From: Longicatena caecimuris
Lineage (GTDB): Bacteria > Bacillota_I > Bacilli_A > Erysipelotrichales > Erysipelotrichaceae
Assembly: GCF_004341945.1 (NCBI RefSeq)
Contig: NZ_SMBP01000003.1
Span: forward strand, 1-64,000
Length of the DNA: 64,000 nucleotides
Direction: 5' to 3'
Each line of letters opens with the position of its first letter. Within the stretch, counting starts at the first letter, position 1. Shown here one piece after another: positions 1 to 43,201 of the stretch. The notes under the pieces were generated by a model that worked only from the letters and a program-made list of their open reading frames with translations, was not told the origin of the DNA and did no database searches. A program made the position numbers and the translations under genes.

Positions 1-60
1 AGAAGTGCAGATGTAACAGTCGTGTTTGTACTTGGCAATATCAATGCCTACGTAATACAT
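1..60 (-). CDS. IS110-family transposase, N-terminal fragment cut by the window edge
   Basis: Reading leftwards from an ATG at 60-58, the first 20 residues contain the motif GIDIAKYKHD. This is the start of the DEDD (RuvC-like) nuclease domain of IS110-family transposases, in which the first Asp is catalytic. A strong AAGGAGG ribosome site lies just upstream on this strand (about 70-78). Only the N-terminus is visible because the gene runs off the left edge. IS110 enzymes recombine DNA guided by a bridge RNA made from the element's own non-coding end, which fits the structured DNA found at 86-244. The family call is good; the subgroup and completeness cannot be judged. Confidence 0.82.
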   Translation of the reverse strand, partial: MYYVGIDIAKYKHDCYICTS

Positions 61-85
61 GATGAAATACCTCCTTTTGAAATAA

Positions 86-244
86 GGGCTGTTGGAAAAT
101 CACAGTTGTTTATTCGGACCTAATCTTGTGCGAAATAAAACATCAAGTGTTATCTAACTAATTAAAGTTTGTAAATAAAAACTGTGGTCTGATTCTCCTT
201 TAAATGGTCTACGCCACAAAAATATAGATACAAATCCACAGCCC
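86..244 (-). ncRNA. Candidate IS110 bridge RNA region
   Basis: The non-coding DNA just upstream of the transposase can fold as one unit. An outer stem pairs GGGCTGT (86-92) with ACAGCCC (238-244). Inside it CACAGTT (101-107) pairs with AACTGTG (180-186). There are two further hairpins with large loops: TTTATTCG (109-116) with CGAAATAAA (131-139, one bulge) around 14 nt, and TGTGG (183-187) with CCACA (214-218) around 26 nt. A stem holding two large guide-like loops, about 160 nt long, in the transposase leader and sense direction is the known plan of IS110-group bridge RNAs. The second hairpin shares bases with the CACAGTT pairing, so the two may alternate. No covariance test was possible. 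Confidence 0.45.
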
Positions 245-272
245 TAAGCTAATTATATAGCTTAATGAATTC

Positions 273-322
273 CCAAGAAAGGAAGATACTATTTAATTAC
301 CTGTTTCTTGGTTAATTAAATA
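273..322 (+). promoter_or_regulatory. Alternative hairpins in the pgi leader
   Basis: CCAAGAAA (273-280) pairs perfectly with TTTCTTGG (304-311), and TATTTAATTA (290-299) pairs perfectly with TAATTAAATA (313-322). The arms interleave, so the two hairpins exclude each other or form a pseudoknot. The only Shine-Dalgarno-like sequence upstream of pgi, AAGGAAG at 279-285, lies in this region and is about 53 nt from the ATG. The region may control pgi translation, or may be a relic of the nearby insertion sequence end. Confidence 0.35.
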
Positions 323-338
323 ATACAAGAAAAAGCAT

Positions 339-1613
339 ATGATGAAATTAGACACTACGCATGCATTTTTAAAAGAAGACGTAAAAAGCTATCAGGAAGT
401 CGTTAATAAATATCACGAACAGCTGATGAAGCGTACCGGTAAAGGGAATGACTTTGTAGGTTGGGTAGAATGGCCACATACCTATGATAAAGAAGAGTTT
501 GACCGTATGAAGAAGGTTGCCCAAAAAATCCGTGAGAAATGTGATGTTTGTATTGTTTGTGGTATTGGTGGTTCTTATCTGGGAGCACGTGCTGCTATTG
601 AAATGATCAATGGCTTGTATGCTGATAAAAAACCAGAAATTATCTTTATGGGAAATACGTTCTCCAGTACGTATATCGCACAGGTCCTGAATTATATAAA
701 AGATAAGGAAGTTTGTGTAAATGTTATTTCTAAATCCGGAACAACGACGGAAACAGCATTGGCTTTCCGTTTACTGAAACAGTTCATGGAAGATAAATAT
801 GGAAAAGACGGTGCACGTGAAAGAATTGTTGCGACAACCGATAAAGCACGAGGAACATTGAAGGCAATTGCTGATAAAGAAGGCTATGAAACTTTTGTAA
901 TTCCAGATGATATCGGTGGACGCTTTTCTGTTATCACACCGGTAGGTTTATTCCCAATCGCTGTAGCTGGTATCGATATTGATGCCATCATGACTGGTTT
1001 ACAGAAGGCATATGAAGATATGGCGGATCCTGATCTGGCTAAGAATGATGCTTATGCATATGCAGTCTGCCGTCGCATTTTAGAGAATCAGGGCAAAAAT
1101 GTGGAAATGCTGGTAAGCTATGAATCACAAATGACCATGGTTGCGGAATGGTGGAAGCAGCTGTTTGGTGAAAGTGAAGGTAAGGAAGAAAAAGGAAACT
1201 TACCAACCAGTGCAAACTTCTCTACCGATTTGCATTCTTTAGGTCAATTTATCCAAGAAGGTAAAAAAGTACTGTACGAAACCTTGTTGTTAGTAGAAAA
1301 ACCAACGTTGGATATCACTTTCCCAAGTGATCCTGACAATGCGGATGGCATGAATTATTTAGCAGGTAAATCGGTTGATTGGGTAAATAAGATGGCAGCA
1401 AAAGGTACTTTAGAAGCTCATGAAGTAACCGGAAATGTACCAAATCTGATTATTACGATGCCCGATATGAGTGCGGAAAGCTTTGGCTATATGTGCTATT
1501 TCTTCTTCCGTGCTTGCGCTATGACTTGTTATATGTTGGATATCAATCCATTCAATCAGCCGGGTGTAGAAGTTTATAAGAAGAATATGTTCCGTTTATT
1601 AGGTAAGAACTAA
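339..1613 (+). CDS. pgi: Glucose-6-phosphate isomerase
   Basis: Interconverts glucose-6-phosphate and fructose-6-phosphate in glycolysis; cytoplasmic. The 424-residue length fits the short Firmicute form. The SIS-type sugar-phosphate motif GIGGSYLGAR lies at residues 75-84 and SKSGTT at 131-136, both of which bind the substrate phosphate. The first two codons are both ATG (339 and 342) and no good ribosome site lies within 15 nt of either, which is unusual beside the strong sites elsewhere in this window. The gene stands alone: an IS110 end lies upstream and a strong terminator follows at 1634. Confidence 0.96.
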   Translation: MMKLDTTHAFLKEDVKSYQEVVNKYHEQLMKRTGKGNDFVGWVEWPHTYDKEEFDRMKKVAQKIREKCDVCIVCGIGGSYLGARAAIEMINGLYADKKPEIIFMGNTFSSTYIAQVLNYIKDKEVCVNVISKSGTTTETALAFRLLKQFMEDKYGKDGARERIVATTDKARGTLKAIADKEGYETFVIPDDIGGRFSVITPVGLFPIAVAGIDIDAIMTGLQKAYEDMADPDLAKNDAYAYAVCRRILENQGKNVEMLVSYESQMTMVAEWWKQLFGESEGKEEKGNLPTSANFSTDLHSLGQFIQEGKKVLYETLLLVEKPTLDITFPSDPDNADGMNYLAGKSVDWVNKMAAKGTLEAHEVTGNVPNLIITMPDMSAESFGYMCYFFFRACAMTCYMLDINPFNQPGVEVYKKNMFRLLGKN

Positions 1614-27651: not shown

Positions 27652-27920
27652 GACAAAAGAAACTTATTTGTATATCATAAAGAAATACGCGGAAACAGCC
27701 ATTTTCTTACCAATTCTACATGCCATGAATGTAACATTTTAATTGCTTGCGAATAAATTTTTAAGCGATATGCTGCCGCATGAGAAAAACATGTTATGCT
27801 GCATAGAAAACACGCACTGTTTGGCCTTTTGAAGTTGAATTTAACTTTACATTTCAGATAAGAAGATGCATTCTATACTTACTATAGTAAATTGTCGAAA
27901 TTTGTGATAAAATGTCATAG

Positions 27921-28045
27921 TTTCGTATACGTCTGCCGGTATGGGGCAGATGTTTCTACCCCGATCCATACTTTGGGACTACGAAAATCAGACGTTTTTA
28001 TAATGGAATGACTGATTCTCGTATGCCGTATACGAGAATTTTTTT
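27921..28045 (+). promoter_or_regulatory. Purine riboswitch with terminator
   Basis: P1 TTTCGTA (27921-27927) with TACGAAA (27980-27986); P2 CTGCC/GGCAG around L2 GGTATGG; the conserved junction GTTTCTACC; P3 with loop TCCATACT. L2 GTATGG and L3 CCATAC can pair, as in known kissing loops. The specificity base before the P1 3' strand is C27979, the guanine-type base. A terminator follows: ATTCTCGTAT (28014-28023) with ATACGAGAAT (28030-28039) plus T7. TACGAAAATCAG (27980-27991) can instead pair with CTGATTCTCGTA (28012-28023, one mismatch) as antiterminator. Ligand binding should turn the permease off. Confidence 0.93.
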
Positions 28046-43125: not shown

Positions 43126-43201
43126 TGGTGACCCCTCAGGGAATCGAACCCTGGACCCACTGATTAAGAGTCAGTTGCTCTGCCAGCTGAGCTAAGGAGT
43201 C
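43126..43201 (-). tRNA. tRNA-Lys (anticodon CTT), CCA encoded
   Basis: Read on the minus strand: acceptor GACTCCT/AGGGGTC, D-arm GCTC-AGCTGGC-AGAG, anticodon arm ACTGA-CTCTTAA-TCAGT with anticodon CTT, T-arm CAGGG-TTCGATT-CCCTG, discriminator A and genomic CCA at 43128-43126. It decodes the lysine codon AAG. All stems pair, with one G-T in the acceptor. Confidence 0.97.

Follow-up and report, generated by a model that had tools for sequence, protein, structure and literature searches.

An IS110-group left end before pgi in Longicatena caecimuris, with a predicted bridge RNA aimed at Shine–Dalgarno sequences and a candidate replacement ribosome-binding site

This report concerns the start of a 64,000-nucleotide (nt) stretch of DNA from Longicatena caecimuris (contig NZ_SMBP01000003.1, positions 1 to 64,000), referred to throughout, at its full length, as ‘the window’. 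The window begins at base 1 of its contig, here called C3, inside an element of the IS110 group of insertion sequences whose repeats broke the assembly. The gene for glucose-6-phosphate isomerase, pgi, has its start codon 11 bp downstream of this element's left end (LE). The LE carries a predicted bridge RNA whose guides appear to be aimed at Shine–Dalgarno (SD) sequences and, at its tip, a candidate replacement ribosome-binding site (RBS). The features at the locus are as follows.

1–60, minus strand: first 20 codons of the transposase, from the sequence; the contig does not reach further into the element, and relatives carry both Pfam domains of the family
70–78, minus strand: transposase RBS, AAAAGGAGG, from the sequence
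85–245, minus strand: predicted bridge RNA, from covariation and a match to a covariance model that excludes the window (E 3.8e-29)
86–92, minus strand: 3' arm of the outer stem, P1, from the inverted repeat and covariation
125–131, minus strand: right donor guide (RDG), GCACAAG, of which ACAAG pairs with CTTGT of the core and LE, from a class test
139–151, minus strand: stem-loop inside the donor-binding module, with 20 doubly changed cells
152–165, minus strand: left donor guide (LDG), UUAAUUAGUUAGAU, which resembles the right end TTAATAGTTAG-CT, from right-end sequences
195–203, minus strand: right target guide (RTG), UUAAAGGAG, which pairs with CTCCTTTAA, the complement of the SD sequence, from comparison of own and swapped flanks and from right flanks CTCCTT
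204–217, minus strand: stem-loop inside the target-binding module, with 20 doubly changed cells
218–230, minus strand: left target guide (LTG), UAUCUAUAUUUUU, its register taken from comparison of own and swapped flanks
238–244, minus strand: 5' arm of P1, from the inverted repeat and covariation
252–257, minus strand: −10 box TATAAT of the bridge RNA, at the same position in relatives
276–284, plus strand: proposed replacement SD, AGAAAGGAA, on the target gene's strand, from tip comparisons, anti-SD pairing and spacing
288–324, plus strand: spacer hairpin between the proposed replacement SD and the start codon, from fold, covariation and spacing
327–329, no strand assigned: left boundary of the element (327) and AG/CT core dinucleotide (328–329), from the divergence of five copies beyond this point
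339–1613, plus strand: target gene pgi, present once in this genome and parted from its own SD by the insertion, from gene position and a copy search

The first-pass annotation, made from the letters of the window, had taken the reading frame at the contig edge for the first 20 codons of an IS110-type transposase, and this proved right. The frame runs from 60 to 1 on the minus strand, with its ATG at 60–58 and N-terminal residues MYYVGIDIAKYKHDCYICTS. The window itself holds only these 20 codons; transposase fragments from the same genome and full-length relatives score well above the Pfam cut-offs for both family domains, DEDD_Tnp_IS110 and Transposase_20, the two being found together in a full-length relative. 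The nearest solved relatives of the transposase are ISCro4 and IS621. The position of the left end is empirical, because the five left ends of this genome (on contigs C3, C34, C42, C37 and C23) are alike up to window position 327 and then diverge; all of them stop outside the RNA region. The C34 copy (C34:1–330) is 97% identical to the window's left end. Two right ends were found, on C5 (position 987) and C35, and these read CTTAATAG, then C or T, then TAG, the core CT, and CCTT; CTCCTT, the complement of AAGGAG, thus follows both. The core reads CT on the element's strand and AG on the plus strand; most relatives share the CT, and some have CA or TT. There are no terminal inverted repeats, and a CT-type core occurs at both junctions. 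The non-coding LE, upstream of the transposase gene, is 267 nt long (window 61–327) and the right end (RE) 107 nt (L009, 881–987). In the IS110 group the LE is the longer of the two, and the RNA lies upstream of the transposase gene (PMC11208160). Window positions 1–327 form the left end of an insertion sequence of the IS110 group. The IS1111 group, in which the RNA lies in the RE and inverted repeats are sub-terminal, is ruled out by the RNA in the LE and by an RE of only 107 nt. A transposase copy of Eggerthia catenaformis (L042, 3045–4166) is missing about 16 residues that its relatives have, and may be inactive.

Upstream of the transposase, the nested inverted repeats first described from the window are present, and slightly longer than had been described: 85–92 with 238–245 (8 nt, 100% complementary) and 101–110 with 177–186 (10 nt, 90%). 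The minus strand of 86–244 folds at −37.1 kcal/mol (z −2.9; 4 of 200 shuffled sequences fold as low), and that of 62–330 gives z −4.3 (0 of 200). A single-sequence fold is, on its own, modest evidence for a structured RNA, and comparison with relatives carries more of the argument. We gathered 89 of these (33–100% protein identity), plus more from whole genomes. In an alignment of 26 LE RNAs the outer stem P1 covaries, its three outermost pairs showing 18 doubly changed cells. A covariance model made from 20 relatives, with the window, its sister copy and the close relative L055 left out, finds a single match in the 64 kb of the window, 85–245 on the minus strand (133 bits, E 3.8e-29), and also matches the second genomic copy and the LEs of distant relatives. 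The consensus fold, many of whose stem pairs show compensatory changes, has two guide-bearing internal loops. The first-pass annotation had proposed a bridge RNA of about 160 nt, which agrees with the model match. It had also proposed two hairpins with loops of 14 and 26 nt, which is roughly the architecture of a bridge RNA, but the guide loops are internal loops, capped by the stem-loops at 204–217 and 139–151. TATAAT at 257–252 (minus strand) precedes the predicted 5' end by about 7 nt, and stands in about the same place in most relatives. That the fold is a chance one, or merely that of a transposase 5' leader, is hardly credible: the moderate z-score of −2.9 is what such a reading would expect, but it leaves the covariation, the model match, and the guide and donor matching described below without explanation. 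We take it as almost certain, from these comparisons, that 245–85 on the minus strand encodes a bridge RNA. No bridge-RNA match for the window was found in Rfam. The hexamer TGGTCT, noticed earlier at 185–190 and 205–210, is AGACCA in two 3' arms of the target-binding module; nothing suggesting a separate function for the doublet was found. Upstream of the bridge RNA, some LEs contain long palindromes (e.g. L062 and L084) with the −10 box inside them, TATAAT being mirrored on both strands in some elements.

The loops had been expected to be readable for donor and target sites, and they are. To compare guides and targets, each guide was matched, locus by locus, with its own flank and with the swapped flanks of other copies. 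Relatives fall into two groups: group A, to which the window belongs (Erysipelotrichia- and Acholeplasma-like), and group B (Lachnospiraceae-like). Matches between the RTG and its right target, out of 8, average 7.1 for own flanks versus 5.4 for swapped ones in group A, and 6.7 versus 5.5 in group B (permutation p 1e-4 in both groups, own exceeding all of 10,000 permutations). For the LTG and left target, the same comparison gives z 5.6 in group A and 9.7 in group B, with a single-register peak in each. The RTG itself is UUAAAGGAG in the window copy and UUUAAGGAG in the C34 copy. On the donor side, the RDG holds the reverse complement of the core and adjoining LE, in the combinations CTTGT/ACAAG, CTCGT/ACGAG, CACGT/ACGTG and CATGT/ACATG. 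The word ACGAG is present in 37 of 45 elements with a CTCGT end and in 2 of 34 others; ACAAG is present in 19 of 21 elements with a CTTGT end versus 13 of 58 others. L062 and L068, whose ends differ (CTCG and CTTG), have RDGs that differ correspondingly (GCGAG and GCAAG). Right ends hardly vary across the clade, and leave little for the swapped comparison to discriminate in the case of the LDG. One loop is thus complementary to the target and the other to the donor ends, clade-wide, and this matching of guides to flanks and ends is, as read from the alignments, the bridge-RNA signature as defined in PMC11208160 and PMC11208158.

Two further observations concern the guides. L057 (2325–2480) and L058 (2210–2365) are near-identical elements in different genomes, with RTGs UUUGGAG and AAAGAAG, each of which matches its own right flank (CTCCAAA and CTTCTTT); it seems that guides evolve far more quickly than the remainder of the RNA. 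Chakrabartyella piscis has six copies on one chromosome (L101–L105 and L109) with a common LTG containing CCUCCU and two RTG types, UUAAUAAAG and UUAAGUAAG; in several of the copies the right flank matches that copy's RTG.

What the target guides spell is the start region of genes. Beyond all five left ends of this genome a start codon appears on the other strand after 8–11 nt, core included: that of pgi at C3, and of open reading frames (ORFs) at C34, C42, C37 and C23. Across the clade, an ATG that opens an ORF of 50 codons or more lies 4–18 nt away at 60 of 82 distinct sites, versus 6.2% for positions drawn at random from those flanks (P 7e-54); the elements are related, which limits the independence of the counts. 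Of the rebuilt empty sites, 86% contain an SD match of at least 5 nt, versus 23% when shuffled, and 59% share 6 nt or more with AAGGAGGTGATC, versus 5%. A replicate set, mostly of multi-copy elements from other genomes, gives 27 of 33 near an ATG versus 8.4% (P 7e-24). Ends in this set were defined by motif; calling them by copy alignment over-extends into the conserved CAT of the targets. SD registers recur in the guides themselves: AAGGAG, UGGAGG, GAGGUGA and GGAGUGA in the RTGs of group A, and CCUCCU, UUCUCCU and CACCUUCU in the LTGs of group B. In group A, moreover, CAU, the complement of the start codon, is present in 23 of 39 LTGs, and CAT in 37 of 39 left flanks.

Such a distribution could also arise by survival, if elements landed at many AG-rich sites, only insertions before ORFs persisted, and the guides did no more than reflect AG-rich DNA. 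Insertions inside essential ORFs would indeed be lost, and SDs are the commonest AG-rich intergenic motif in low-GC Bacillota. We consider this very unlikely, since it accounts neither for an ATG distance fixed at a few nt in one orientation, nor for guides that match their own flanks position by position, nor for the CAU of so many group A LTGs. It is at odds, too, with four close relatives that lack SD-like guides (L107, L111, L115 and L181), none of which lies in front of a start codon. The insertion site is tied to the guide because elements with such guides are not at start codons, and SD targeting can, from the same four, be lost or replaced. (L107, L111 and L115 sit at inverted-repeat DNA.) Targeting of SD sequences by the guide RNA is, on these alignments, very probable.

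The two groups differ in what insertion does to the gene. In group B the SD is on the gene side of the cut and is retained by the gene; in group A it is on the far side, and is split from the ATG. The anti-SD pairing retained near the ATG has a median of −3.1 kcal/mol in group A versus −8.7 in group B (p 2e-7), and the tips of group A elements supply −8.6 kcal/mol. Read in the direction of the target gene, these tips consist of AGAAAGGA, with or without a further G, a hairpin that begins 0–3 nt later in nearly all (6 nt in C3), and then 2–5 nt to the end of the element. Group B tips have no hairpin between tip SD and element end. The group A hairpin, 23–50 nt long, covaries (30 doubly changed cells versus 11 when shuffled) and is 85% paired, versus 29–40% when slid. 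With the hairpin unfolded, the median distance from SD to ATG is 47 nt; with it collapsed, 11 nt (10–90% range, 8–15). A distant SD would in this way be brought near the AUG by a hairpin, as in the ‘split’ RBS of phage T4 genes 25 and 38. Within group A, weak supply by the tip accompanies a retained SD (p 0.008), and 39 of 40 sites have one or the other. Group A insertions precede pheS, metK, ileS and trpS, and in the window pgi. For ileS, pheS, trpS and pgi, the assemblies concerned yielded no further copy; three of these assemblies are metagenome-derived, so that a missed copy or strain mixture is possible. The SD and hairpin at the tip likely form a replacement RBS that would restore translation of the target gene, a reading well constrained by these comparisons.

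The same strip lends itself to another role. Hairpins in transcripts that enter from outside silence the transposases of IS10 and IS50. An ordinary SD-aimed bridge-RNA element, with no replacement function, might use its CCUUUCU strip and tip hairpin to protect the transposase: in read-through RNA from outside, UUCCUUUCUU, the complement of the proposed SD, would pair with AAAGGAGG of the transposase RBS and silence it. The minus-strand fold of 62–330 does pair UCUUCCUUU with AAAGGAGG. This reading is unlikely. It does not account for a hairpin that is always between strip and end with a near-constant collapsed distance to the ATG, for its absence in group B, where the native SD is kept, or for continued translation of single-copy ileS, pheS and trpS. 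Any SD-like strip automatically complements an RBS-masking strand, and both roles could coexist.

Several points weigh against a replacement RBS, or against the reading as a whole, beside the relatedness of the elements counted. In the window copy, the LTG matches its left flank weakly, the hairpin is bulged and weak alone (z −0.8; that of the sister copy on C34 is perfect), and the collapsed spacing of 20 nt is the longest of 37. The typical collapsed spacing (11 nt) exceeds the native one (5 nt). Stable folds occur in group B tips too, but elsewhere than between SD and end. The assembly of this genome is broken within the element, which leaves its left and right ends unpaired. Finally, a test for an outward promoter in the LE, on the gene strand, gave no signal above chance, and because none was found read-through transcription is assumed for the target gene.

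Taken together, the computational evidence supports the bridge RNA, guide–target matching, SD targeting, loss of the SD, and a conserved, covarying SD-hairpin; the SD target of the guides and the SD-hairpin at the element tip (276–327) go beyond the first-pass annotation. The mechanism that we propose is as follows. The target-binding loop (LTG 230–218, RTG 203–195) would read the translation start regions of genes, its RTG pairing with CTCCTT(T), the complement of AAGGAG, and its LTG, in many relatives, also containing CAU, which complements the start codon. The donor-binding loop (LDG 165–152, RDG 131–125) would read the element's own junction, TTAATAGTTAG-CT-TGTAT. Recombinase and bridge RNA would then insert the element into the SDs of many genes, in one orientation, with the LE facing the gene. 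In the window's group, insertion would move the SD about 1.5 kb from the ATG, and the LE tip would offer AGAAAGGAA as a substitute on the target gene's strand. The hairpin at about 288–324 would fold out the intervening bases to form a ‘split’ RBS, and the gene, its mRNA presumably made by read-through across the element, would stay translatable. For the window, this reading in full—an IS110 left end with an SD-aimed bridge RNA and a replacement RBS at its tip before pgi—is probable, and we hold it with good confidence. For this clade of IS110 elements in Bacilli and Clostridia it is fairly likely that the bridge RNAs treat the translation start region, from SD through spacer to start codon, as a universal landing site before most genes, and that in one branch the element's end carries a portable split RBS that makes insertion nearly neutral even before essential genes.

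Elsewhere in the window are a purine riboswitch aptamer at 27903–28001 (plus strand; Rfam RF00167, 56 bits) and a tRNA gene at 43129–43201 (minus strand; Rfam RF00005).

Bridge RNAs are known to be programmable, and the natural targets named in the papers cited here are specific repeats or sites. If our reading is true, an SD-aimed guide would provide a safe, oriented target before very many genes in any host that uses SDs, and the ability of IS110 copies to spread while leaving genes alive would be explained. As for the replacement SD-hairpin, it would amount to a mobile, ready-made 5' untranslated region. Two questions become open to direct test: the course by which guide RNAs come to read universal motifs, and whether an SD bridged by a hairpin functions before arbitrary genes as it does before T4 25 and 38. 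SD-aimed recombinases could also serve as practical tools for DNA insertion at gene starts in laboratory strains. Our literature search found no report of an IS110 element or bridge RNA that targets the SD or RBS, although preprints, most subscription journals and supplements were outside its scope and a description there is possible; nor was a replacement RBS carried by an IS110 element described in the literature searched. The papers that define bridge and seek RNAs make no mention of RBS or SD targets.

The closest known system is the bridge RNA of IS621 and the IS110 group (PMC11208160, PMC11208158). As there, the RNA lies in a long LE upstream of the transposase gene and has two guide-bearing internal loops; the CT core falls within the guides, with LTG and LDG matching the bottom strand and RTG and RDG the top; and the recombinase has DEDD and Transposase_20 domains. 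IS621, however, targets REP elements, whereas the guides here spell the SD and start region. Unlike that of IS621, the RNA predicted here has no separate 5' stem-loop and begins with the outer stem; in one branch of the clade, the tip bears an SD and hairpin. The seekRNA of IS1111 and IS110 elements (PMC11187229) is likewise an RNA from a non-coding region that selects the target, with guides that differ between close relatives. That of IS1111 differs in lying downstream of the transposase gene, in elements with sub-terminal inverted repeats, and no SD target is mentioned for it. The tip resembles most the split RBSs of phage T4 genes 38 and 25, where a hairpin shortens the SD–AUG spacing from 22 to 5 and from 27 to 11 nt, respectively, and translation is lost when the structure is destabilised (PMC3014915). 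There and, by prediction, here, a hairpin between SD and AUG shortens an overlong spacing to about 5–11 nt. In T4, the split RBS is fixed in phage genes; here, the predicted device rides a mobile element, and would be given to whichever gene is hit.
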